Shown one piece after another: positions 5,946-64,000 of a stretch of 64,000 nt of DNA. The translations under genes were made by a program, and so were the position numbers. Each line of letters starts with the position of its first letter. Positions within the stretch are counted from its first letter, which is position 1. Below the pieces are notes generated by a model. It saw nothing but the letters and a program-made list of their open reading frames with translations. It made no database searches and was not told where the DNA came from. The stretch is from Talaromyces rugulosus (lineage: Eukaryota > Ascomycota > Eurotiomycetes > Eurotiales > Trichocomaceae), in the NCBI RefSeq assembly GCF_013368755.1, contig NC_049563.1, forward strand, positions 1,798,001 through 1,862,000. The letters are read 5' to 3'.

Positions 5946-8154
5946 TCAAGACTGTTCAACTGTGAACGCCTTCATCAAAAGATCATGAAACCTCCCATCC
6001 CTAATCGCCAAATAGATCTCACTGGCAAACGTCCCCAAAATCTTTTCTGGCCGCTTCTTACCACCATGGCCGCCATCAACAACACCATTGGTCTTTGCAG
6101 TAGCAGCAGCAAGAAGAGTCGGATGATCAACCAAGCCGCGGTGAAAGGGGATATCCAGGTCCTTTCGAACAAAACTGTAGACCATGGCAGAAGCCTTCCC
6201 AAGGTATTGCGCGGTGGACTGGGTGTTGTAAAAGGCATTGCGAGTCGAGTCGTAGACGGTAGAGAGGGTTTGGGCTGCTTGCGTTTTGTAGAGCTCAACA
6301 ATGTGCAACAAATTCAAGTTTGCAGCGGCCGTGGTTGTTGCTGTATCAGTTGTCTCGTGGATGAGAGAATGGATCAGGTCTCCCAGGGACTCCTTGATAG
6401 TGACTGCAGCGCGGTCCTCGAGGTCGAGATGGGACAGGCTCTGCCATTTTTCAAGGACGCCGTTCCAGGACTTTGCTGAAAACTCGCCAAAACGTTCGTC
6501 TGATACCACCAGCTTCCCGAAATGTTCCCGGAGGAGGTTGTGGAACGCAGGTTTGGCGGCCACGACGAATTCCAAATGGAGGCATCGAAGATCGAGCGCC
6601 TGACACAGCAAATAGATGTAGGTGGCAGACATCAAGGAGACGAGTTCCACAGCCTCAAGAGCGTAACGAGCAGCAATCAGGGCGAGCGAATTGACGGACT
6701 GGTTATGCAGCTCGGCAGACTGCACGTGCGAGCTCACTGGGTGCGCAATGTAGGCCAATTCAGACATGTAAGCAGACATGTTGACATCAAATCCTTTCGC
6801 CGTGAATGAAAGGCTGGGGTCGTCGCTTGACAGATTGGGTGGAAGTCCCTTGTTCTGTTGGTTGTTGACGAGCTCCGAGCTCTGGGCGAACATCAGCTTG
6901 CCGAGCATCTGCATGGCGGTCGTGGTCTTTTCCATGGCAGATGTAATACAGACTGCCTGGAAGTTCCCACCGTGGTGGATGGCTCTACCGGCAACGTCGA
7001 TCAAGGGGTTGTCGGTGGTAGAGTTCACCTCGGTGTCCACCTGGCGATACGCAAGATTGAGGTCTTCGAGCTGAGGCCCGATCCATTGGGGAGCTGTTCT
7101 CAACGCATAGCGATCCTGAGCGAGGCCAATCGTTTCAGCGTTATTGTCCAACGCAAGCTTAGACCCTGATAGGAGGTGAGTGATGTTTTTTGCAGCTTCG
7201 GCCTGCCCCTGATGAGGTCGGATGCTGGAGATGAAAGGATGGTAATTATGGGAAGTCCCTAGGAGGGCTTCGGTCGCCATAGCAGTGAGTAGCTGGGTCA
7301 TCAGGGCAAGCTGCTGAGCCTGGTAGATGGCAACACAGCCCGCAGCACAGCTGGCAGAAGTCCCGTTGGTGACGCCCAGTCCTTCCTTTGCCCGGAGAAG
7401 AATCGGTTCGATGCCAGCTTGTTGGAGAGCCTTGTCTGCTGAAAGATAGGTTGCAGTACGCTTCTCGCTGCCTACGCGAACGTAAATGTCTGGATTACCT
7501 TCGAGCATCCCAGATATGTAGGAGAGAGTCGAAAGGTCACCGGACGCGGAGATGCTACCACGCAGAGGCACAACTGGGGTCATGTCTTTCTCCAGCATAG
7601 ATAGGATATTCTGGGGGATAGCAAGACGCACACCAGAGTGACTGCGGATCAGTGAGTTGCACCGAATGAGCATCATTGCCCTGACAATTGAGACTGGTAG
7701 TGAATGTTCACGAAGATTTTCAGGCTCTACAGCGTGCAGACCCTTGTCAGAGGGAAGAAGAATGCCGACATTTAGGTGCTGCTGCAGGGCAATTTGGAGA
7801 CGCTCTACCTTGTCAGTGCGAGTGTCTGCACTGCCTCCAAAGCCTGTGGTCACACCGTAGACTGTGCGACCATTTTTCAGTTCATCCTCGAGGAAATCGA
7901 CGCTCTGTTGGACCTTGCTGATGGTAGCATTGTCAGTGGTCACAGACGCACTTTTTCCATACCTAGGGGGGGCCAAATCAGTATTTTGTTAAGATTCATA
8001 AATATTCACAAGAGGAGGGGACATACATGGCCACCGCCACAACACCAGCGATAGTCAGGCTGTATCCATCAATCACCACAGGCTGGTCAGACTTGAGCAC
8101 AGCTTGAAGGTCTGCCCATCCCTTGTGGGCCTGGGTGAACTGTGGACAGTCCAT
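5946..8154 (-). CDS. pal: Phenylalanine ammonia-lyase
   Basis: Exons 8027-8154 and 5946-7962 with a 64-nt intron give about 714 aa, the usual size of fungal PAL. The enzyme removes ammonia from L-phenylalanine to give trans-cinnamate. The Ala-Ser-Gly triad that cyclises to the MIO electrophile is present (GSISASGDLS, residues about 182-184). So are the catalytic tyrosine loop YGVTTGFGG (Tyr about 78) and the AETIGLAQDRYALRTAPQW segment typical of the PAL/HAL superfamily. The start ATG at 8154 splices in phase into MYGKSAS. The sequence fits PAL better than histidase because of its length and C-terminal extension; some tyrosine activity cannot be excluded. The gene converges on mcm6 with only 169 bp between stop codons. 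It lies about 45 kb from the aromatic cluster at the right end, so a direct link is not assumed. Confidence 0.93.
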
Positions 8155-48000: not shown

Positions 48001-48634
48001 GATGAATAGCCCACGTCGCAGCCCTCGCGTTGCCTCACGAGGTTCTGAGAAAACAGTGGCAGACAAAGAAAATACTTCATCTGCAGCTGATCGTAACCTG
48101 GACGACTTGTTCAACAGTCCATCCTTTGACTTCACAATTCCAACAACACCCACGCCCAAACGACGAACACCTCGTTCTGATCGGAGATTATCACTTCCTT
48201 ATTGCTCTCCGACGGCCAACCGAAACAAGAACGTGGCAATAGTTCTGTCTCCGAATACACAAGACAAAAATCGAACGCCCCGCGCCGGTTCTGAGAAAGA
48301 TGCATTCTCGGGTGTAGGAGACATCGCACTCGAAGACCTATTTGACTCATGGCAGACGCTTCCATCGGATACCTACAATCCATTTTCTGACTGGTCTCCG
48401 TCGCATGAAAATAGCAATACCGGGCTGCAGTTAGGCGGTCATTATAATGACGACGCGGCCATCATTCATGCCATACTCTCAGATGCTGAGATGCAAAAAT
48501 CAACAAATATAGACGACTCCTTTCCAGCGAACACGAGTGTTCCAGACGCAGCGTTACCGGCAGTCACCAACAAATTGGACGACAATGTCAATAATACAGC
48601 AGGTGAAAATGCACAGTCTGCTACCTCCACTTAA
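45055..48634 (+). CDS. Ams2/Spt21-like GATA-type zinc finger protein
   Basis: Exons 45055-45094, 45171-45324, 45380-47391 and 47451-48634 give about 1129 aa. The N-terminal domain (RLKVLYTFDDENKTNCLARW... with GQGMLSWVLAS and TIVTGRV) is the one shared by yeast Spt21 and fission-yeast Ams2. These factors control histone-gene transcription and, for Ams2, CENP-A loading at centromeres. A single GATA finger follows, but its halves are far apart: CNNCGAIETPTWRRAW (Cys about 662/665) and LLCNPCGLWLQ (Cys about 734/737), so the loop is 68 residues instead of the usual 17-20. Ser/Pro-rich disordered regions fill the rest, with FNSPSFDFT-type short motifs near the C terminus. The first donor GTACGT was chosen because it gives the in-phase MRLKVLYTFD. 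Role by family: nuclear regulator of histone supply. Confidence 0.85.
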
Positions 48635-50946: not shown

Positions 50947-51269
50947 TCATACATTCTGGGGCGGGTTAATTTTCGTAATATTACTAGGCTTCTCCCCAAC
51001 GGTCATGTAGAATCCCTACATGTTGAAATTTTCCATGTTAGATTTCACATACTTGGCTCAAATAAGGGGTTAAATAAACTCACCATGGATACATGCTAGG
51101 CAATGTGGCAATGCAGCGACCACGTTCCTGGGTTGTCGGTAGGATACTGGATTACAAGGTGACCGTTTTCTCGCAACATCTGTACGTTGCCAGTCCACAC
51201 AAACCACCCGTCGATGGTGATTATTTTTAGTCCGTTTTGACCGTTGGAAGGGAAACTTGAAAAAGCCAT
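50947..51269 (-). pseudogene. Broken multicopper oxidase (laccase-like) C-terminal fragment
   Basis: Read on the minus strand, the segment gives NVQMLRENGHLVIQYPTDN, then PGTWSLHCHIA, a TAG stop, then HVSM. Across an intact 68-nt intron (51016-51083, GTGAGT donor, CTAAC branch, TAG acceptor) it continues GFYMTVGEKPSNITKINPP before a TGA. This is the third-cupredoxin end of a laccase. The His-Cys-His cluster is present, and the stop replaces the Trp of the invariant HCHxxWH motif, a TGG-to-TAG change. The upstream cupredoxin domains were not found, so the copy is truncated as well as interrupted. The intact laccase at 59953-62058 has the corresponding [21 protein letters not shown] second lost oxidase of the same neighbourhood, or a duplicate fragment, would fit. 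Confidence 0.65.
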
Positions 51270-53560: not shown

Positions 53561-55372
53561 TCAATTATCACAAATTAGAGTTATCGAAGAAATCTCACCT
53601 TCTCGCTTTGATCGGAGGTATTGTTGCCATATAATCGCAATATCGTTTTTATAGATCCAACTCAACTCATCACCTACGGGAAATGCTTCGAGACGCGATG
53701 CAAGGACGCTCTCAAAAATATATGTCGGGTCGCTACTTTGGCTTTTAGCCTCGGTTTGTGCTCGACTAACTTTCGCTTTTTGACTGTCTAGGTGTTCATA
53801 CATTCGTCGATAGTATGGGGAGCGAATATCATTAAAAATTTCCAGAGCGTCGGCGATATTTCGTGCCTTAATGACCTGTCTGTCATGATCACTATCTGAA
53901 AAGGTTGATGAAGCTCTGCTGGTAACAAGTTCTATTGCTCGAGCAAGAATCCAGCCATCTTCCAAAGCGAAAGCCGCGCCGGAACCAAATGCACCTATGG
54001 GAAATAACAATCAATAAATGAGCATACTTTGTACACGGCAGTGCGATAGACGGATGTGTGGATTGATTCACCAGATAGTGGGTGGCTGGCGTCTCCCAAT
54101 AATACCACTTTGCCCCATCCCACAAGCCTTTCGAGTCTCGGCCCTGAAAAGGCAGAAAATTCTTTCCAACCTCCTTCTGGGACGCGAGAAAGTGCATCGC
54201 GTACTCGGCGGTCGTATTGCTGTGAGTCGGAATAACCAGTTCAGCTCTCTGCTTTAGATCCTATATCGAATCTGAAAAATTGCAAAGTGGAAAGTTATTA
54301 CCGTAAAGTGAACATTGACTCGCTCATTTGTTGCGGGGACCCCCCAACTAAACCTCTTCTCAGTATCAAGGGCTGGATCTATGAGATAACGACACGAAAC
54401 CTCGATCATTTGCTCAGATGATGATGAGGTGCTGGAATCTAGAAATTCAGAAGGATCATCAACCAGCGAGAAATAACAGTGCCCTGAAGGGCCATGCCAC
54501 CATGATGTATCCGGAAATAAGTCGTGGATGTGAGATAGAGATTTAGCTGGAATCAGGGTCCGCCAAATAGTTGTACCTAGTTGCTGTTAACGGTCATGAT
54601 AAGTGAAATGATCTATTTATCTATTCATACCCGTGAATTTTGTAATATGTTCTGGGAATAGTGATGTTCTGATTACCTTCCCGGACTTTAGCAATTGCAA
54701 AGTTTCAAGCCTTAGAATGCGGAAGTAGAGAATAGAAAAACTTACAGAGCGAATCCCATCTCCACCGACTACTAGATCCGCTGTCGTCTTAGCCCCATCT
54801 TCAAAGGTGAGATGGACACCTTGCGTCCCAGCATCGTGAATTGATACCAATTTTTTATTGAGCTGTATAATTCCTGGTGGAACTTTCGATATTAAAGCAG
54901 CTTGCAGTCTTGTTCTCTTCACCCGTCTAGACCGGTACTTGAGGGGAACTGAAGACGGAGCAGGTTTCACGCGTTTAATTTCACCAGACAGTCCATTTCT
55001 TTTCGGGTGAATACACGTGTAAGCAAATAGACATCAGAAATACGTGCGTCGAACTCTTGAAAAGTTGGAACCAGTACAATTTCTTGCATGCAACAGTTGA
55101 CAAAAGAGAATATCATTCGCCTACCGATAAAGCACATTCTGCTGCAAGTGTCCCCGCACATCTTCAGCAGCCCCAAGAAGTTCAAGAACCTTCCAACAGT
55201 TGTATCCAATACTGATTCCGGCACCGACTTCTCTCAGCTCGCGAGCCTTTTCGTACAGCGTTATTCTGACATTCGGCAAGGCTGATAACGCAATTGCAGC
55301 ACCGAGTCCAGCCGGACCGCCCCCGATAATAGCAATCCTGAGGACATTTGCATGGTTTGGTTCAGTCGACAT
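53561..55372 (-). CDS. FAD-dependent monooxygenase, salicylate-hydroxylase-like
   Basis: Exons 55125-55372, 54746-54998, 54631-54676, 54302-54576, 54072-54219 and 53561-53994 give about 467 aa. It is a class A flavoprotein hydroxylase using NAD(P)H and O2 on an aromatic substrate. It has the Rossmann GxGxxG (IIGGGPAGLGAAIAL, about 15-29), the DG motif VVGGDGIRS (about 159-167) and the GD motif LLGDASHPLSGAFGSGAAFA (about 314-334), which contacts FAD ribitol. In salicylate hydroxylases this fold decarboxylates and hydroxylates salicylate to catechol; in gene clusters relatives hydroxylate polyketide or shikimate-derived phenols, so the substrate is open. The first intron (126 nt) is the least certain, but phases agree and the spliced NGLSGEIKRV...KRTRLQAAL follows the family. 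It diverges from the chorismate synthase gene. Confidence 0.86.
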
Positions 55373-56445
55373 TGATAAGAACCTAATCTTGGTACAACGG
55401 CTTTGTTATTCTAGAATCTTCATTCATCTCAAAATTAATGAATCGTCTGGAGGGAAAAATGTCAGTGTGTCGGCTTTATCGAAGGATTCGGATTTTGGGA
55501 TTTCTCATATTGTTGAAATATTGTGCAATATTCATGGTTATTACTAATTATCGTTTGATAGGGTGTTCTAACGGTTTTTAAAAACTAGCCCGCACGCCAA
55601 GGGATTTGCAGTGTTAGTTTAGATATCAGACAAACGTCCGAGCTGGTACGTTAGAGATATTTTTTAGTAGTATTTGACACCTGATAGAATAGTGTGTGTC
55701 AAGTATGGCACGCACCATGGCTCCACTGGGACAAGCCACGGGCTTATTGACGATAAGTCATAATGCTGCGTATCAAGCTTGACAGATATTTCTTGTCAGT
55801 GTCATTATCGATAAGACTTCACTATCCCGGATATGGAGATGGCAGCGAGTAAATACGATATAAGGGTTGACCAGAAACCCCTTACTAAATTAGCGCGCGC
55901 CACTTTGCACCATATTATTACATATCTTTATCCTCGATACGGATCTGACCCGCCCGCTCGTATGCACGGCTTACCGATAACAACTTGCGAATGTATACAG
56001 GGACCGATTGGCTATAGCGGAGTCTCCGGGGCCGGGCCGCTGTTGCCCATTTTAGCGCCGAATGTCGCCATGTTTTGGTATTACATATATTTTACATACA
56101 TGCTGTATTTGATGGTATCGAAAAGTTGGTTCGGTATTGGGCTCGATAAGCACGTGGCGAGCCCCATCACGGGTGAAGATTAACGTAACTTTGGATGCGT
56201 ATTGGAAGTGGCGGTTCGGCAATGAATTACGCTATCAATTGATTCGTATTCGTGTCGCGCTGACTTGATTAGATATATATTTAGAAATAGATGACACGTA
56301 CAGTTTCAACAATAGTAGTAGGACTGAAGTCACAAAAAACATCCTAATCGAGGTAGCATCTGCCTTACTGCCGGTAAATTTTGGTCGAGTGCTCCAGGAG
56401 AGAGCTTTGATATCTACTATTCTTCGAAAAAACATCTTGCTAACC
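55373..56445. promoter_or_regulatory. Divergent promoter region of the monooxygenase and chorismate synthase genes
   Basis: About 1.07 kb between divergent start codons. It contains palindromes such as TTATCGATAA near 55807 and TCAAGCTTGA near 55771. A 116-codon open frame at 55833-56183 has no recognisable domain and was not called as a gene. Shared regulation of the flanking genes is inferred from layout. Confidence 0.45.
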
Positions 56446-57786
56446 ATGTCGACATTTGGTGACTACTTCCGGGTCACGACGTAAGTTTGTAAATCCATTG
56501 TAGTTATCGATCTATGACTAATGTTCTTAAAACAAGGTATGGCGAGTCGCACTGCCGTTCAGTCGGGTGCATCGTGGATGGCTGCCCTCCTGGCATGGCT
56601 TTGAGTGAAGATGATATTCAACCCCAGATGACTCGACGGAGGCCTGGCCAAAGCGCCCTCACTACCCCTCGCGATGAGAAGGATAAGGTTGAGATACAGT
56701 CCGGAACAGAATACGGATTTACTCTCGGTACGCCAATCACTTTGATTGTTCGCAATGAGGACCAAAGGCCCAAGGACTATGGCGGTAGCACGATGGATAT
56801 GTTCCCTCGTCCGAGCCATGCCGATTTCACTTATCTTGAGAAGTATGGAATTAAAGCTAGTAGTGGAGGAGGTCGCAGCAGTGCTCGCGAGACAATTGGT
56901 ACGGTTTTTCTATTATTTATATTTGATCTAAAACCAGTGAGTTAATCTGAGAGGAGAATGAAAAGGACGTGCTGCCGCTGGAGCTATTGCAGAGAAATAT
57001 CTGAAGCTTGCCCATAATATCGAAATTGTCGCCTTCGTTTCATCTGTTGGCAAGGAAGACCTTTTCCCCCCTTCTCCTGAATACCCTTCCTACTCAACAA
57101 ATCCCAATTTTTTGAGACTGATTGAAACAATTACTCGGGAGAAAGTGGATGAGTTTGCCCCTGTTCGATGCCCTGATACAGAAGCTTCTCGCCGTATGGC
57201 TAAAGTCATTGAGGCCTTCCGTGATAAGAAAGATAGTATTGGAGGTACCGTCATGTGTGTCATTCGAAACGTTCCAGCCGGTCTAGGCGAGCCCTGCTTT
57301 GATAAATTGGAAGCAAAGCTTGGCCACGCAATGATGAGTATCCCTGCCACGAAAGGATTTGAAATTGGTTCTGGCTTTGGTGGCTGCGAGATCCCCGGCT
57401 CAGTTCACAATGATCCATTCGTGGCAGCACCAGAAGTTGCTGGACTCAATGATAAGAAACGATTGATCGCAAAAACAAACAATTCTGGGGGTATTCAGGG
57501 TGGTATCTCGAATGGAGCCGATATCTACTTCCGCATCGCTTTCAAAGCCCCTGCGACCATTGGCCAGGCACAAATTACAACCAAGTATGACTTCGAGGAA
57601 GGAATTCTAGAAGCTAAGGGTCGTCATGATCCCTGTGTTGTACCCAGGGCTGTGCCAATTGTTGAGGCCATGTCCGCGCTTGTCATCATGGATGCTCTTC
57701 TTGCGCAAAAATCCCGGGAGGCTTCGAGAAGTGTACTTCCACCGTTGCCTAAATCTTTACCTATAAGACCTGAAATCACAAACTAA
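56446..57786 (+). CDS. aro2: Chorismate synthase
   Basis: Exons 56446-56480, 56537-56898 and 56966-57786 (introns 56 and 67 nt) give about 405 aa. The enzyme makes chorismate from EPSP using reduced FMN; fungal forms carry their own NADPH-flavin reductase activity. All family signatures are present: [45 protein letters not shown], the [10 protein letters not shown] loop, [23 protein letters not shown] and [18 protein letters not shown]. It therefore looks catalytically intact. The segment before NNSGGIQ (residues [16 protein letters not shown]) is shorter than I recall for housekeeping fungal Aro2, hinting at a cluster paralogue, but whether another copy exists cannot be seen from this window. 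It sits between an FAD monooxygenase and a reductase, with DAHP synthase 6 kb away. Confidence 0.93.
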
Positions 57787-58340
57787 GTCAATCTCGCTCA
57801 TGGCCACAACTTGGCTCTATTTCTTCAATATCTCTGTTTATGAGTCGTTGGTTACTTTTAGTGCTTATTGATCCTATTATAGACATAGATGTATTAGTTG
57901 CAGCGAGTTCACTCGTGAACAAAATTACGACAGATAAAATGATATATAATGTTAGGATTATTTCAAAAGCCTAGCTTTAGATCGAGTGTGACATAGGAGA
58001 CCCTATAATATTAACAAGTTGACATGTAATAATTTCCACCAAGTTTCTAGGGAATGGCAGAAATCAGTGATTTAGATAGTTTGGGACGGTGAGCTGCTTG
58101 TCTTCGTTTGACACATTTCAAGGGCGACCAAGCTTGCGTGACCATTTACGAACAGAGCAAAAATTTGCGTGTTTATGATTTGTTTCTGCAGATATTGCAT
58201 TTTTTTTACAACGATTACTTCGTATACACGCAATGAAATGTTGTGAAAAAGAACACAGGGCAACAACTGTTGATATTGATGACACCACGTTTACCTATCT
58301 AATAAGCCATCCTTTTTCGGCGGCTTGTCTGCCGTGATCA
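57787..58340. other. Intergenic between convergent chorismate synthase and reductase genes
   Basis: About 550 AT-rich bases containing two 3' flanks. No gene seen. Confidence 0.5.
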
Positions 58341-59525
58341 TTAAGCACTGGCAGCCAGGAGACTCTTGATATTGTCAATAGTGCTTTTCTCGAGATCAAT
58401 CCAGTTGATGCCCAAAATCTCGGTTGCCCTGGAATTATCATAGCCAGGAACCACGGGAGGGTAATCACCACCTTTCGTCTCCTCCGAGGGAAGTTTATCC
58501 TTCAGTTCAGGAAAGTTTCTTCGCGCTGCCGCCGCGATCTCTCTGTTACTAAACTTGCCCGTCACGGTGAAGAATCGCTTTCCACCCGCCTCTGGTTTCT
58601 CGAGTGCCGCAATGTGCGCGAATGCCACATCGCGAACATCGACCCATAGATTGACACCAATAGAAGGAAGGATTTCGTCCTTCCACTTTCCTTGAATGAG
58701 CTCGACAAACCGCTCATTGGAGGTGTTTATGGCTGAGAGTGAGCTCAGGCGATCCACACGTGGCCCAAAGACAAGTGGAGGGCAGATGGTGACAAGGTCG
58801 AAGGCGGGCTTCTCCTCCTCGACAAACTTCCAGGCAGACCGCTCTGCAACGGTCTTGGAGGCTCTGTACGCGCTTACCTTGTTACCGTTCAGGCCATCTT
58901 CATAGGTGATAGGATTCCAGTCCGATTCATTGTAGACTTTGTTAGGATCCTGAAGCCCCTCGACGGAAACCATTGAGACGAAAGAGCTAGTCACGACGAC
59001 CCGTTTAACGCTAGGGGCATACTTCTTGATGGCCTTGAGAATAGATGTGGTTCCGGTGATTGCTGGATCTAAGAGTTCCGACTTCGCATCTGACCAATTG
59101 AAATGGAAAGGAGAGGCGGCTGTTCATGTATCAGAGTCAAACTCATGGCACGGTTGGTACTAGGGACGTATATTTACTGTGCAGTACAAAATCGAGACCT
59201 GGAATCTTTACTACCTCATCAAACGCATCGGGCTGCGCGATATCTGGTACGATAGCAATAGATAGTTTAGCATTAGGATACGCATCGCGGATCTTGGAGG
59301 CCTTGTCCTCGGATCTAACAGTGGTAACTATCTCGTATCCTCGATGGACCAAAATTTCTAAGATGTGAGCTAGAAAAAAAAATCTTAGCAAGGACTACAA
59401 GGTCAAATTTTCAAAGATGTATACCGGCAAGGAAGCCTGATCCACCTATTTTCATCAATTTAGCAAGTGAATTGAGTAAAGCGTTGTAAAGAAGAGCACA
59501 TACCTGTGACGAGTACTTTGGTCAT
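58341..59525 (-). CDS. NAD(P)-dependent extended-SDR reductase (dihydroflavonol/cinnamoyl-CoA reductase-like)
   Basis: Exons 59504-59525, 59425-59445 (a 21-nt microexon), 59178-59369 and 58341-59119 give about 337 aa. The spliced N terminus MTKVLVTGGSGFLAAHILE is the glycine-rich nucleotide-binding motif of extended SDRs. It is only complete if the microexon is used, since that exon carries the GSGFLA core. VLHTASPFHFN follows at about 76-86, then VVTSSF (Ser about 123-124) and the catalytic pair AYRASKT (Tyr about 163, Lys about 167). The family contains yeast Gre2, dihydroflavonol reductases and cinnamoyl-CoA reductases, which reduce ketones or aldehydes. A tailoring reduction of an aromatic intermediate is a reasonable guess in this neighbourhood. 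It lies on the same strand as the laccase gene, 427 bp downstream of it. Confidence 0.9.
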
Positions 59526-59952
59526 CGTGGGATAATTTTGAATGTATTTTTGCTCTAAAACTTTAGATACGCGATTTGTGTTTGGAATGCCGTTGATGTT
59601 GAACTCGGGGTGGGGGAAACAAATCAATTAAATATACCACCATCGCCCCGCTAACTGTCAGACAAGACTCGTTCCTTCGCTCGTAATAATAAAACAACCC
59701 TGTCAGCATTGAACGAATTTTAGTGTTAATATCATCTGAGCTAGCGGTAAACGGCCCACACATTGCGAGTCAATTACTAATAACGTATTTTATAACTAGT
59801 TAGTTATCTAGCTTATGATCAAGAACCGAGACGGCAGGAAATTTGCGGGAGCAATACGAGTAGAAGAGAAGTCTATTATGATATGAAAATATGAAACTGG
59901 CTCACGAAACGAAACAGGAAATTTCGGTCTAGGGGTTGCCCAATAAGTCACT
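59526..59952. other. Short gap between laccase and reductase genes
   Basis: About 430 bp between two minus-strand genes: laccase terminator and reductase promoter. Nothing else seen. Confidence 0.45.
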
Positions 59953-62058
59953 CTATAACCCACTATCTATTTGATCGACGATGTTCCTCTTACTCCAGGC
60001 GTCCCAAGCTGTGCAGGTTTGGTCGATGGTCTTCTGTATACGTTGTTGCCCCTTGATATCATCTGGGCGCTCCAAGATATTTATGAGGAAGCCTGTGCTG
60101 ACATGCCAGGCCACATGGCAGTGGAATGGCCAGACTCCTGGGTTATCTGTGGCGAATTGCACGACCAAGTGTCCGTTGGCGGGCAAGAGAGTCGTGTCTC
60201 TCCGGATGGGATTGTGACCGTTGATAACAGTTCCGTCCCACTCCCCTGTACCATAAGAAAGAACCTGGTAGTCATGGCCGTGCAAATGCATTGGATGCGT
60301 GAAAGTAAGATTGTAGAAATCCGGGTTCGAAGGGTCAACTTTCCGGTTTTCCCAGACTATACGCACGACGCTGCTATTTCCAGTATTATAAACGTTCCAC
60401 TCTGGGTCCGCCGGGTAGTTGAAAATACCCTCCTCAGCCAGATCCAAGATTGGTTTATTGTAGTTGACACGGAAGGTCTGGTTATTGATCAGGTATACTG
60501 GGTGGCCGGTCTCATTTTTGACATCGAGAATCTGGATATTGATGGTTTGGTCTGCAGGAGCGGCAGGAATGCGAGCCACGGGACTGGTGAGATTTAAAGG
60601 TGGATTTGCGCACGGCATATCAGCATTGTACAAAGGCTGGGGAGCGCTGGTGGGCGTTTTTTCATCTACCAAGTCCTGTTCGTCGTAGTAGATTGCTGCG
60701 AGACCGTAGGGCTGCTCTGGGAGGGTGCAGAGGACCGAAAGATTGGCGCGCATCCAGTAGTTCCGCTCTGCATCAGCTCCTGTCTTTCCATGAACAATGA
60801 CATCCGCTCTTTGGCCAACCTGGAATTCATGTCAGGAAGAGTAATTTTTGGTTTCACATTCATAAGGTGTACTCACGCCAAGGGTGACGGAATTCGTCTG
60901 GTATGGCTTGATTGGAACGTAATCGTTTGCAATGACCGTAAGATCATGCTCATCGATTGTGAAAAATTGAAGGCCAGATGATCCAGTATTCACTAGGCGC
61001 AGCAAATGACTTTTTCCTGGCTGGAACTGGAATTTAGAAACACCAGCGTTGCTCACACAAGGTGTTCCATTTGTCGCTCTACTGCAGTCCCAGACCATCT
61101 TGCCATTTATAACACTGTTGTCCGAGAAAGCAAAATGAACTCCAGAAGAATTACTGTTCACTGTTTCAACCAGCTTTTCGTAGTAGGGATGATACACTTA
61201 GTTTTGTCCGTTAGTATTTACTTGTCTTTGAGAGACCAATGCCGACTTACTGTCGCTAAGCAACACGGGACCTAGGTCGATGTCATATGGTGCCGGTTTT
61301 GGACCATAAAAGACCATGGGACCTACCAACCCAGAAGTGAGCTGGGCTGAATAGTGCGAATGGTACCAGCTGCTTCCAACATGATCAGCGCGGAATCTGT
61401 AAGTGAAATTCGACCCCGGAGCGATGGGACATTGTGTCACTTGTCGCAGTTAGCCGTGTTTCAACTTTAAATTATCAAGTGTACACTCACATCCTGGTAC
61501 ACCATCCGCATACTGAGTCTGATATTGACGTATCCCATGCCAATGGATTGATGTTCCTTCGTCTAGGTCTTGGAGAGAGTTGGTGACCGTAATCTCGATC
61601 CAGTCACCCCAGTTGGCTTCTATCAATGGCCCAGGATACTGTCCATTGATAAGAAGCATTTGCTTTTGATATCCATCGGGAGCAAGAGTACCCGGTGCAA
61701 CATTAAAATGATACTTTCGTGTGACGTTGGTTTCGGGAAGTGGCTCGTTTACGGTATCAGGCTCATACTTAAGAGAGCCCCATGGATATCCATGTTGTAG
61801 AATCTGAAGTTCGTTAATACGTGTATCAAAATGTTGAAATCGAGGGACTCACGCTGCCAGGCAAGAATTCTGGAAGATTCTGCCAGGAAGTAGCATTCAG
61901 GTTTCTAATACAAAGACGACCATCAATGTCTCTTCTCGAATTGATGCTTGCTCATTTACTCACCCATTCGTCTGCTCATTGGTGAGGCCACCAAATAATG
62001 GCAAAGCCCCGGCGAGCAAGTTAATAATGAATGTTGATGGAGGAAATGGTGACAACAT
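59953..62058 (-). CDS. Secreted laccase / multicopper oxidase
   Basis: Six exons (61964-62058, 61853-61904, 61491-61803, 61251-61439, 60877-61196, 59953-60819) give about 611 aa. It oxidises phenols to radicals while reducing O2 to water. All four copper-binding blocks are intact: HWHG (136-139), WYHSHYSAQ (His about 180/182), HPMHLHGH (about 498-505) and HCHVAWH (about 556-562). The residue ten after the ligand Cys is Phe, so the type 1 copper lacks an axial Met. The N terminus [20 protein letters not shown] is hydrophobic and could be a secretion signal; many N-x-S/T sites fit a secreted glycoprotein. Introns are 49-59 nt. In fungal clusters such enzymes couple or oxidise phenolic products, or make pigment. 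It diverges from the DAHP synthase gene. Confidence 0.92.
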
Positions 62059-63473
62059 GATTTGGGAACGAATGGTTTAAGCCCTTCACGAAAATACTCA
62101 AGGTCACGTCAGTTGAGGACGTGGAATTGTGTGAATAGAGGTTCAACTCTGGACTGCTTCTTCCTTTCTCTCAAATATATACCAACATATTTTATGAGCT
62201 ACAGCTATCCTGTGGCCCCCAAAGCTAAACAAACGTTACTAAAAATCCAAAACATTATTAAATTTCGTATTCCGAAAAGTATATCCATAGCTCCAATATA
62301 GACTTTACAATCTCGTATCCATCAGAGAATCCATTTGGGGGTCTACGCTGACTGTAAAGGATTTTAAGTCTTAATTTCGTAAATACTAGCATATTATTCA
62401 TTTGTTTTTTGAAGCCATCGTCTTACACAAATCTGCGATTGGCTGAGATACTGTGTCTAGATGGATCTTTCGCCTCGTATTTTCGCCCGAGCCTCTCCAA
62501 AGGCTGACGGTAGAATCCTTCCTTGGATCCGTATTCGTCTAATATTTCTTAATTTAGCATCTTCGCGAAAAATGGAAGAATTGTTCTAGAGAAATAGCAG
62601 CATCCTGGTATGGCTAGTTGGTTGGTTGGTTTATTGGCTGATTGATCTATCAATTATAGTTTGTTGTGGCTGTGCCACTACGAAGACTTGCCAGATCCAC
62701 TGCTTACTTAGTATGTTAGTTCAATACGAAACCACGCGTATTTAGAATGTTGCATTAAATCATAGCCTTGGGTGGATTAACATGTCGTGATACGTAAATC
62801 TCCGAGGTGCAGTAGTGGGTGCATGGATCCCCGTCATCAATAAGACGGCGGTGGAGCCATGCTATCAAATTCCACGTTGCCTTTCTTTAGTGATGTATAA
62901 GGTTTAGGGCTGATTCGTTGTAACTTGTCTGCCTGTGATAAGTGCTGATGGTTTGTAAGTAATACTAGCCGTAATGCACTTGTAAGTAAGTATTTGCGTG
63001 TATCATTACTGTCACACCGTAATACGGTATAATTCTTGGCTCATTTTTTTCCCGTATTCGTGATGTACTAGCGTCAGTTGTATCCCGGTGAGCAGGATGC
63101 ATACTAATGATAGCATTGCATCAGCAATTGTGAGATTTCCCAGTTCTTGTGTACCCTGGTATCCTCGGATTCATCGATGATTTGTTGAACCATGGAGCCC
63201 CCCTGCTCGTGCTAGGATTTAGACATGTGCGAGAGCCGGAGAGACATATCGTGCAGATAAGCAAATGGAAGGCCTGCATTCTGTATTAATCGTCATCGAG
63301 CAGCGTTTGTAACAGATATATACCGTATAGTATATATATCTCTGTGTTCATTGACCGACTCATCATTGATACTTCTATTCCTCTCATACCTAGAAATCAT
63401 TCAAAGACTTGTTCATTTATAAGCCCTTTGTCTGTGATAATAGACATCAAAGCTTCTTATAACAGTCTCCAAC
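62059..63473. promoter_or_regulatory. Divergent promoter region of laccase and DAHP synthase genes
   Basis: About 1.4 kb with no gene. A 13-bp palindrome ACCGTAATACGGT lies at 63016-63028 and contains CCG-N5-CGG, an arrangement that fungal Zn2Cys6 regulators can bind. Whether it is functional is unknown. Confidence 0.45.
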
Positions 63474-64000
63474 ATGCCATCGACAATCTATGAGCCTGTG
63501 AAGAGCTTCAATGTGCCTCTTCCTAAACCAAGCAGGGTGAAGTCTACGTTAGCTCTGGTTAGTACTTTTCTTTTCAAGGCCACGTTCTTATCCGTACTTA
63601 TTATATATAGGATGAATCAACAAAAAGACATGTAGAAAGCAGTCGCAATGCTATTCGAAACCTTCTGTCACATCAAGTTTCTGATGACCGCCTGATGGTA
63701 GTTGTCGGACCGTGTAGCATTCATGACACGAACGCTGCCCTCGAGTATGCTTCTCTGCTTGCCGAGGCGGCCGATAAACATCAGCGCGAGCTTGTCATAA
63801 TCATGCGTGTTTATATCGAGAAACCAAGATCGACTGTTGGATGGAAAGGGTTGATCCATGACCCAGACTATGCGCAAGACCTCGAAAATCTGAACCAAAG
63901 CTCTATCCCAGACCTATCTAAGGGGGTGTATACAGCACGCAATGTTATGCTCGAAGTCGCAAAGAAGGGTCTCCCAGTCGCCACAGAGCTCCTGAACCCA
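63474..64000 (+). CDS. DAHP synthase (type I), truncated by window end
   Basis: Exon 1 is 63474-63557, the intron 63558-63610 (53 nt), and exon 2 runs from 63611 past the end; 158 residues are visible of an expected roughly 370. The enzyme condenses phosphoenolpyruvate with erythrose 4-phosphate, the first and usually feedback-controlled step of the shikimate pathway. Visible signatures are VVVGPCSIHD and IIMRVYIEKPRSTVGWKGLI. After GLIHDPD the usual short link is replaced by a longer one (ENLNQSSIPDLSKG), and the usual '(A/S)GE(F/M)LD' stretch reads ATELLNP. It therefore looks like a divergent paralogue rather than the standard Aro3/Aro4 type. Feedback-site residues lie outside the window. 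It shares a 1.4-kb divergent promoter with the laccase gene. Confidence 0.9.

Follow-up and report, generated by a model that had tools for sequence, protein, structure and literature searches.

DAHP synthase genes beside genes for NRPS-like enzymes have already been described. In the ascocorynin (acy) cluster of Ascocoryne sarcoides, an NRPS-like core gene is accompanied by genes for a zinc-type regulator and a DAHP synthase, and the latter was measured to be co-expressed and was read as supplying precursor (PMC9047271). The acy core is an A-T-TE enzyme that fuses two arylpyruvates, and the neighbours described for it include neither a chorismate synthase nor a laccase nor a 2OG oxygenase (PMC9047271). 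Similarly, the allantofuranone (alf) cluster of Allantophomopsis lycopodina has an NRPS-like core of the A-T-TE type, a DAHP synthase (alfS) and a C6 transcription factor, along with a ring-cleavage dioxygenase and an O-methyltransferase, and its gene table has neither a chorismate synthase nor a laccase (PMC12105029). Fungal carboxylic acid reductases (A-T-R) have AMP-binding, AMP-binding_C_3 and NAD_binding_4 domains. In addition, database records of DAHP synthases carry the name AMT16, from the Alternaria AM-toxin cluster; we take AMT16 to be a DAHP synthase serving the Phe-derived residue of AM-toxin.

In Talaromyces rugulosus, a DAHP synthase is paired with a reducing (A-T-R) core and with a chorismate synthase, a combination of which no description was found in the literature searched. 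A preliminary description of the window, which is the whole stretch of 64,000 nucleotides analysed, had placed five genes with intact family motifs and two divergent promoters at its right end. Gene models and profile searches recovered all five genes at these positions, apparently intact (Table 1); Pfam families matched four of them, and the chorismate synthase was matched in a whole-genome search with the PF01264 profile. Both promoters were confirmed, and a third was found. The core enzyme and transcription-factor gene that the same description had sought to the right of position 64000 are there as well, the former as an A-T-R NRPS-like gene and the latter as Zn2Cys6/Fungal_trans pieces. 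Since the 2OG oxygenase gene, the third promoter and the A-T-R gene all lie to the right of the window, the cluster extends past 64000, and it spans about 17–23 kb around the A-T-R core. The preliminary description knew of no cluster with exactly this set; this needs correcting in that DAHP synthase in NRPS-like clusters is known from acy and alf, both of which, as described, lack the chorismate synthase and laccase present here.

Table 1. Features of the cluster region; numbering is that of the window and is continued to its right.
Feature	Position	Strand	Remarks
FAD-dependent monooxygenase (FAD-MO)	53561-55372	-	6 exons, 457 aa; exon 1 from the unaided gene finder hand-joined to the remainder from an anchored run (intron 54999-55124)
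Divergent promoter, FAD-MO/aro2	55373-56445		ACGAATACGR at 56244
Chorismate synthase (aro2), cluster copy	56446-57786	+	3 exons, 405 aa
GRE2/ketoreductase-like SDR	58341-59525	-	4 exons, 333 aa
Ascomycete laccase	59953-62058	-	6 exons, 611 aa
Divergent promoter, laccase/DAHP synthase	62059-63473		ACGAATACGR at 62529 and 63052
DAHP synthase	63474-64797	+	3 exons, 401 aa; window stops inside gene at 64000
2OG-Fe(II) oxygenase	65469-66654	-	Right of window
Third divergent promoter, 2OG oxygenase/A-T-R gene	66655-67503		Just beyond window
A-T-R NRPS-like core gene	67504-70815	+	Right of window
MFS gene	about 73035-74688	+	Incomplete model, two pieces; N-terminal piece 24.9 bits, under the Pfam cut-off of 33.4 bits
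Zn2Cys6/Fungal_trans factor gene	75357-76933	-	Incomplete model, two pieces
NmrA-like gene	77389-78399	+	Cluster membership uncertain

The core gene encodes a carboxylic-acid-reductase-like enzyme with adenylation and thioester-reductase domains in a single chain (AMP-binding, E 5.6e-28; AMP-binding_C_3, 4.2e-39; NAD_binding_4, 1.1e-26), and is therefore A-T-R rather than the A-T-TE type of acy and alf; condensation and thioesterase families were absent from its Pfam matches. The carrier domain fell below the Pfam PP-binding threshold; an FFTAGMDSLQ motif with the putative phosphopantetheine serine was read by eye, and PF00550 is precomputed in the relatives P0008 and P0010. For the R domain, 8aep gave the best match in the PDB. 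The FUB8-like and other A-T-R sequences included in the tree fall outside the clade of this enzyme. Motifs read by eye suggest an aryl acid as the substrate class.

Neither shikimate-pathway gene is the sole copy in the genome, a possibility that the preliminary description had raised against its own reading: family profile searches found three other DAHP synthase loci and one other chorismate synthase locus, the latter on contig C2 (the present contig is C3); DAHP synthases also lie on C1, C2 and C5. The cluster DAHP synthase is a class I enzyme (PF00793, 260 bits with an earlier 387-aa model) and falls in a specialised clade of 43 rows (support 100/100), within a sub-clade of 30 rows (100/100). 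It retains the residues at Aro4 C76, R107, K112, R180, H282, E316 and D342, which we take to be catalytic. The pocket residues of the feedback-regulated Aro3/Aro4 type are not retained: Aro4 P165, Q166, G193, S195, F224, T228, K229 and I235 are replaced by V, Y, D, P, V, D, E and Y respectively. The position of K229 is K or R in 28 of 28 housekeeping-side rows and in 1 of 43 rows of the specialised clade. Apart from K229/K222 and Q159, the positions compared are presumably inhibitor-pocket residues. The roles of K229/K222 and Q159 in the pocket are taken from the literature, in which K229L is known to relieve the feedback inhibition of yeast Aro4 (PMC10349828, PMC7659061) and K222L of Aro3 relieves feedback only incompletely (PMC10349828). 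The specialised clade is a deep one, in which the catalytic residues are kept and the Phe/Tyr inhibitor pocket is rewritten; because of this rewriting the cluster enzyme is predicted to ignore feedback, and it looks built for deregulated flux.

The cluster chorismate synthase is full length, aligns with Aro2 (1r52) over residues 1-390 and matches PF01264 in two exons (248.4 and 167.5 bits). It is about 86% alike to the C2 copy, with a rough dN/dS of about 0.05 (dS 1.86, near saturation), and appears to be a Talaromyces duplicate under purifying selection. A decayed copy was rejected, as the gene is intact and dN/dS is low (dS again near saturation); a retrocopy was also rejected, as both introns lie at identical places in the two copies (by eye). 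Paths from the Talaromyces fork are 0.23-0.31 in the cluster-type clade versus 0.13-0.16 for the C2 and T. atroroseus types, and the cluster type was named from Talaromyces only among the best 120 matches. At 277 conserved columns the cluster copy departs 11 times, T. atroroseus 9 and Oidiodendron 12 times. Of the 274 columns at which 95% or more of 119 other rows agree, the three copies of the cluster type have replacements in common at T35S, F71 to Y/C/C and T169S only, and the C2 copy has T169S too. The histidines that we take to be catalytic are unchanged. We know of no report of chorismate synthase as a feedback-regulated or controlled step, and it is no obvious bottleneck; supply therefore explains this extra copy less well than it explains the DAHP synthase. 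The earlier proposal that the duplicated enzymes raise precursor supply is thus well supported for DAHP synthase, with its pocket lost and catalysis kept, and fairly supported for chorismate synthase.

Among the tailoring genes, FAD-MO (FAD_binding_3, E 5.9e-11; GxGxxG, DG and GD motifs read by eye) falls in the salicylate hydroxylase/TropB/SorC group, its PDB relatives being 6-hydroxynicotinate 3-monooxygenase, TropB, SorC and salicylate hydroxylase. The SDR has an NADP motif and YxxxK, read by eye, and matches ketoreductase and GRE2 structures in the PDB (best E 1.9e-66). The laccase has three Cu-oxidase domains and four Cu-ligand motifs, the latter read by eye.

The gene set is probably co-regulated. 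A 10-base element, ACGAATACGR, found post hoc and derived from the same promoters, is in all three divergent promoters and is absent from the upstream region of the SDR gene. Five sites occur in 15.4 kb here, against at most two per such stretch among the other 95 of 100 places listed; this density comparison covers 100 of the 176 sites in the genome, 76 being unlisted. The best-hexamer excess was equalled in 1 of 300 simulated promoter sets, the element itself being post hoc. CGG-type dyads expected of Zn2Cys6 factors were considered as well: CGG..CGG is in four of four core promoters, but no single fixed spacing is common to all.

Co-location in relatives was judged from equal contig sizes of protein-search matches. 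A-T-R relatives and specialised DAHP synthases lie on contigs of identical size in three of the seven fungi named in both match lists (Xylaria arbuscula, X. venustula and Claviceps maximensis), while the other four (C. purpurea, Coleophoma cylindrospora, Seiridium unicorne and Hypoxylon texense) gave no such contigs. Chance matches do occur: in A. sclerotioniger, a housekeeping-side DAHP synthase and an A-T-R relative (39%) share a 1.54-Mb contig. A-T-R relatives are also found in T. stipitatus and Dactylellina cionopaga. The linkage of specialised DAHP synthase to an A-T-R core thus appears to recur in some other fungi. Matches named T. marneffei placed aro2 and the A-T-R gene on contigs of identical size, apparently the same contig; this is less certain because those matches are six-member clusters. 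No second T. marneffei aro2 was named among the matches listed.

To the left, A+T-rich, gene-poor DNA (GC 0.38-0.39 at 50-54 kb) follows the end, at 48634, of a gene named by eye as GATA-type. A possible source of cinnamate, the gene at 5946-8154 (PAL-like by eye), was left out of the cluster: it is about 45 kb away, the genes in between resemble housekeeping genes (by eye), and relatives of it occur at several further loci. Farther right in the same island are genes for a FAA hydrolase, a phenol-hydroxylase-like FAD-MO and a P450.

It is rather likely that the cluster around the A-T-R core carries its own supply arm of DAHP synthase and chorismate synthase and yields an aromatic product, probably a phenolic compound. 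The extra chorismate synthase may instead confer self-resistance, the product inhibiting this enzyme and the cluster copy being a tolerant stand-in for housekeeping Aro2. A near copy of a conserved primary-metabolism gene within the cluster, its longer tree paths and the lack of an obvious bottleneck agree with this. Such duplicates inside clusters are the pattern exploited in resistance-gene-guided mining (PMC12616698); that source makes no mention of chorismate synthase. The few shared replacements, the unchanged histidines and a number of departures close to those in T. atroroseus and Oidiodendron speak against a tolerant enzyme, and no Xylaria or Claviceps aro2 is among the named rows of the best 120 matches, though DAHP synthase and core share contigs there; self-resistance is considered unlikely. 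A combined version, in which a chorismate-like or aryl-aldehyde product inhibits chorismate synthase, aro2 confers resistance and the feedback-blind DAHP synthase has the double role of supplying the product and sustaining the pathway, is decidedly unlikely.

It is quite unlikely that only the A-T-R, 2OG oxygenase, laccase and DAHP synthase genes form the cluster, with aro2 and FAD-MO as unrelated neighbours at its edge. These two are indeed the outermost pair, and this aro2 type is restricted to Talaromyces among the matches listed; but their common promoter contains the element, aro2 is duplicated and its other copy lies on C2, and the T. marneffei genes share contig size, while none of seven other species named in both the aro2 and A-T-R lists (A-T-R relatives 38-40%) has equal-size contigs. 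An island for catabolism or detoxification, in which laccase, FAD-MO, SDR and A-T-R process plant phenolics and nothing is synthesized, would suit the genes farther right, but would not need a pocket-less DAHP synthase plus an extra chorismate synthase, and is very improbable.

In the favoured supply reading, the feedback-free DAHP synthase would drive carbon into the shikimate pathway and the extra chorismate synthase would keep the last step in pace, while housekeeping enzymes would cover the middle steps, which are those of ARO1, and would turn chorismate into an aryl acid. The A-T-R enzyme would load this acid and release an aldehyde, the SDR would reduce the carbonyl, the FAD and 2OG oxygenases would hydroxylate, and the putatively secreted laccase would oxidise or couple the phenol. 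The MFS protein may export the product, and the Zn2Cys6 factor may turn the gene set on, perhaps via the common promoter element.

The known DAHP synthase/NRPS-like pairing is now extended to reducing cores and to the last shikimate step, and the predicted loss of the amino-acid sensor, with catalysis kept, offers a residue-level reason for it. If so, the specialised clade would help to locate gene clusters for aromatics in genomes and would be a natural source of enzymes free of feedback for aromatics production. Resistance-guided discovery gains a concrete candidate in the extra chorismate synthase; were the self-resistance reading true, the product would serve as a natural lead for antifungals or herbicides, with a target absent from animals.

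A second cluster in the same genome (C2, 29-47 kb) shares an NRPS-like core, a long-branched DAHP synthase of the specialised clade and a laccase, and also has a Zn2Cys6-type regulator and an MFS gene (by eye). It differs in its A-T-TE core and in having no chorismate synthase; no 2OG oxygenase was recognised by eye among the genes predicted at 8-68 kb. The DAHP synthase/laccase neighbourhoods of C3 and C2 were considered as a single recently duplicated module, which was not supported: the laccases are 49-57% alike by exon, a laccase on C6 scores similarly (451 bits versus 363 plus 111), and the gene pair is divergent here and convergent on C2.

The region is a real cluster. All five genes named in the preliminary description (FAD monooxygenase, chorismate synthase [aro2], SDR, laccase and DAHP synthase) were found in the window, apparently intact, by gene models, Pfam matches and a PF01264 family search. 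Gene models came from a purpose-written small splice-aware gene finder and an anchored version of it. Neither recovered the whole FAD monooxygenase; its exon 1 was joined by hand, which makes this the least secure of the five models. A core scaffold enzyme had been suggested to lie to the right of position 64000, and when 49 kb past the window end was fetched, an NRPS-like gene of the carboxylic-acid-reductase-like A-T-R type was indeed located there (Table). It carries AMP-binding, AMP-binding_C_3 and NAD_binding_4 domains (Pfam), together with a carrier serine motif, a reductase YxxxK and a His-containing A4-like motif, MPFSHALG, identified by eye. The last is read here as pointing to an aryl or alkyl acid rather than an amino acid.

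Table. Features on the right-hand extension (window numbering continued) and at a second locus of the genome
Feature	Position	Strand or location
DAHP synthase gene end	64797	right of window
2OG-Fe(II) oxygenase	65469-66654	-
A-T-R NRPS-like gene	67504-70815	+
MFS transporter, model in two pieces	about 73035-74688	+
Zn2Cys6/Fungal_trans factor, model in two pieces	75357-76933	-
NmrA-type protein	77389-78399	+
Second shikimate-linked cluster	C2:29247-47477	near contig start

The MFS and Zn2Cys6/Fungal_trans genes are candidate models, and intactness is not claimed for them because each is split in two. Beyond the NmrA gene lie another MFS, a P450, an FAA hydrolase, two more FAD_binding_3 proteins and others, followed by a long single-exon gene at 106678. 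The stretch 85604-92812 holds a row of P450, FAA hydrolase, phenol-hydroxylase-like FAD monooxygenase and a small glyoxalase-like protein (named by eye, without a Pfam match), possibly an aromatic-degradation set adjoining the biosynthetic genes.

The genome comprises 35.76 Mb in six contigs (C1, 7,273,914 bases), with the window at C3:1798001-1862000. A whole-genome search for second copies, as called for in the preliminary description, showed that aro2 and DAHP synthase are both extra copies here. DAHP synthase has three other loci, on C5, C1 and C2 (38 kb). A 71-row tree (4 own and 67 of 120 matches) places the cluster and C2:38-kb proteins in a specialised 43-row clade (100/100, two kinds of branch support), far from the 28 housekeeping-side rows. 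Within this clade, a sub-clade of 30 rows (100/100) unites the cluster protein with those of Claviceps, Xylaria and Coleophoma and with further proteins. Several very long branches occur both inside and outside the clade; the program flagged long branches, that of the C2:38-kb copy included.

Residues were counted in both groups by yeast Aro4 numbering; the positions from P165 to I235 other than those named in papers are pocket or feedback-resistance sites. On the housekeeping side, P165, G193, S195, F224 and I235 are kept in 28/28 rows, Q166 and T228 in 27/28, and position 229 is K/R in 28/28. The corresponding clade counts are 0/43, 2/43, 2/43, 1/43 and 0/43 (1 gap), then 10/43 and 0/43 (1 gap), and 1/43 (1 gap). 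Aro4 C76 (2 gaps), R107, K112, R180, H282 and E316 are present in all clade rows having a letter, and the D342 position is D in 27, a gap in 13 and another residue in 3. From these residues, the specialised clade is predicted to be unresponsive to Phe or Tyr. Aro4 K229 and Aro3 K222 and Q159 are described as inhibitor-contact or feedback-relief positions in the accessible text of two studies (PMC10349828; PMC7659061). Loss of K229 alone is no proof of feedback loss, because Aro3 K222L relieves feedback incompletely, as the same accessible text states (PMC10349828).

For chorismate synthase, a single further locus is present, at C2:2488807-2490003. In the aro2 tree (36 rows, 2 own and 34 of 120 matches), the cluster copy, a match named T. 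marneffei and one further protein form a clade (100/99), nested in a seven-row Talaromyces-type group (95/90) with the C2 copy and T. atroroseus. This grouping suggests that aro2 was duplicated inside the Talaromyces lineage, and duplication would have been at the DNA level, since both introns lie at identical places in the two copies. Path lengths from the Talaromyces-type fork are 0.23-0.31 for cluster-type rows and 0.13-0.16 for the others; dN/dS between the two copies is about 0.05 (dS 1.86, close to saturation). A second T. marneffei aro2 does not appear by name in the 120 best matches; it may sit in a match cluster without a species name, or be missing. The Oidiodendron maius chorismate synthase also clusters with Talaromyces-type sequences (97/95).

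Linkage in other fungi was measured by exact equality of longest-contig size per match, among the best 120 matches of each search. The A-T-R gene and specialised DAHP synthase, as one-member clusters, share contig sizes in Xylaria arbuscula (1,123,588), X. venustula (963,189) and Claviceps maximensis (302,142). Sizes are unequal in four of the seven species named in both lists (C. purpurea, Coleophoma cylindrospora, Seiridium unicorne and Hypoxylon texense); some of these mismatches are perhaps due to broken assemblies or to the listed A-T-R being a paralog. The aro2 and A-T-R matches named T. marneffei have equal contig size (1,980,432), a less certain link because each is a six-member cluster. 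As a control, seven other species that appear by name in both the aro2 and the A-T-R lists (best 120 each) were compared, namely A. sclerotioniger, A. candidus, A. steynii, A. affinis, A. melleus, Paecilomyces variotii and Thermoascus crustaceus; in none of them do the two contig sizes agree. Chance matches do occur on long contigs: in A. sclerotioniger, a DAHP synthase from the housekeeping side and a 39% A-T-R relative have the same contig size (1,541,067).

In the A-T-R tree (36 rows, 1 own and 35 of 120 matches; a single kind of support), Talaromyces groups with Dactylellina, Coleophoma, Xylariales, Xylaria and Claviceps (12 rows, support 99). This company is much like that of the DAHP synthase, though Dactylellina is not named on the latter side. 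Among the best 120 matches, the Dactylellina cionopaga protein is 76% identical, nearer than those of Xylaria or Claviceps, and such patchy spread hints at horizontal transfer.

Scanning of four core upstream regions yielded the hexamer AATACG, with 14 occurrences against 2.5 expected. Its density there is 3.7 per kb; the A+T-rich left flank has 1.25 per kb, and window positions 1-48600 have 0.35. Of 300 simulated sets, one had a best hexamer that equalled the real best. The extended form, ACGAATACGR, occurs at 176 places genome-wide (reversed-reading control, 102). Five sites (56244, 62529, 63052, 66983 and 71615) cover all three divergent promoters (FAD monooxygenase/aro2, laccase/DAHP synthase and 2OG oxygenase/A-T-R) and a point about 1.4 kb upstream of the MFS gene. 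In the 100 of these 176 places that were listed, other 15-kb stretches have at most two sites each. A sixth site, at 94912, falls within this island. Upstream of the SDR, AATACG is present without its extension. That ACGAATACGR is a shared co-regulation element is put forward as a hypothesis, and its presence here is no test because it was derived from these same promoters. The C2 chorismate synthase also has a site upstream (C2:2485416), at a distance of about 3.4 kb.

Precursor supply is well supported as the role of the cluster DAHP synthase and has fair support for the chorismate synthase, for which self-resistance is a less likely alternative. Since none of the cluster genes was recognised as encoding a chorismate-using enzyme, the acid supplied to the A-T-R enzyme would come through housekeeping steps. 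The A-T-R enzyme would reduce an aryl acid to the aldehyde, which would then undergo carbonyl reduction and hydroxylation as well as oxidation or coupling. PDB relatives are ketoreductases and GRE2 for the SDR, ascomycete laccases for the laccase, and 6-hydroxynicotinate and salicylate hydroxylases, TropB and SorC for the FAD monooxygenase; the 2OG oxygenase matches a broad group weakly.

The general idea of a DAHP synthase in such clusters is already known from acy and alf. In the accessible text on acy, a DAHP synthase is co-expressed with acyN and interpreted as precursor supply (PMC9047271); this core is A-T-TE (thioesterase-type), whereas that of Talaromyces is A-T-R. The alf cluster likewise has a DAHP synthase gene, alfS, in its gene list as accessible (PMC12105029). 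The accessible text of a Hypoxylaceae cluster survey mentions A-T-R genes and not DAHP, shikimate or chorismate (PMC8403587). In the titles and abstract openings of the top-listed papers (for example 15 of 185), mostly from non-subscription literature, no fungal cluster combining an A-T-R core, DAHP synthase and chorismate synthase was found, nor any description of this cluster, in keeping with the earlier view that it is undescribed.

The same genome carries a second cluster of A-T-TE type (C2:29-47 kb), which includes an A-T-TE NRPS-like gene, a specialised-clade DAHP synthase and a laccase; a Zn2Cys6-type regulator, an MFS, a dienelactone-hydrolase-like and an FAA-hydrolase-like gene were recognised there by eye. 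In the window, a phenylalanine/histidine-ammonia-lyase-like gene (by eye) lies at 5946-8154 (-), with relatives at several further genome loci. A short laccase-like fragment in the A+T-rich, gene-poor flank (51048-51185, -), 52% to cluster laccase residues 532-577 with one internal stop, may be what remains of a lost gene.
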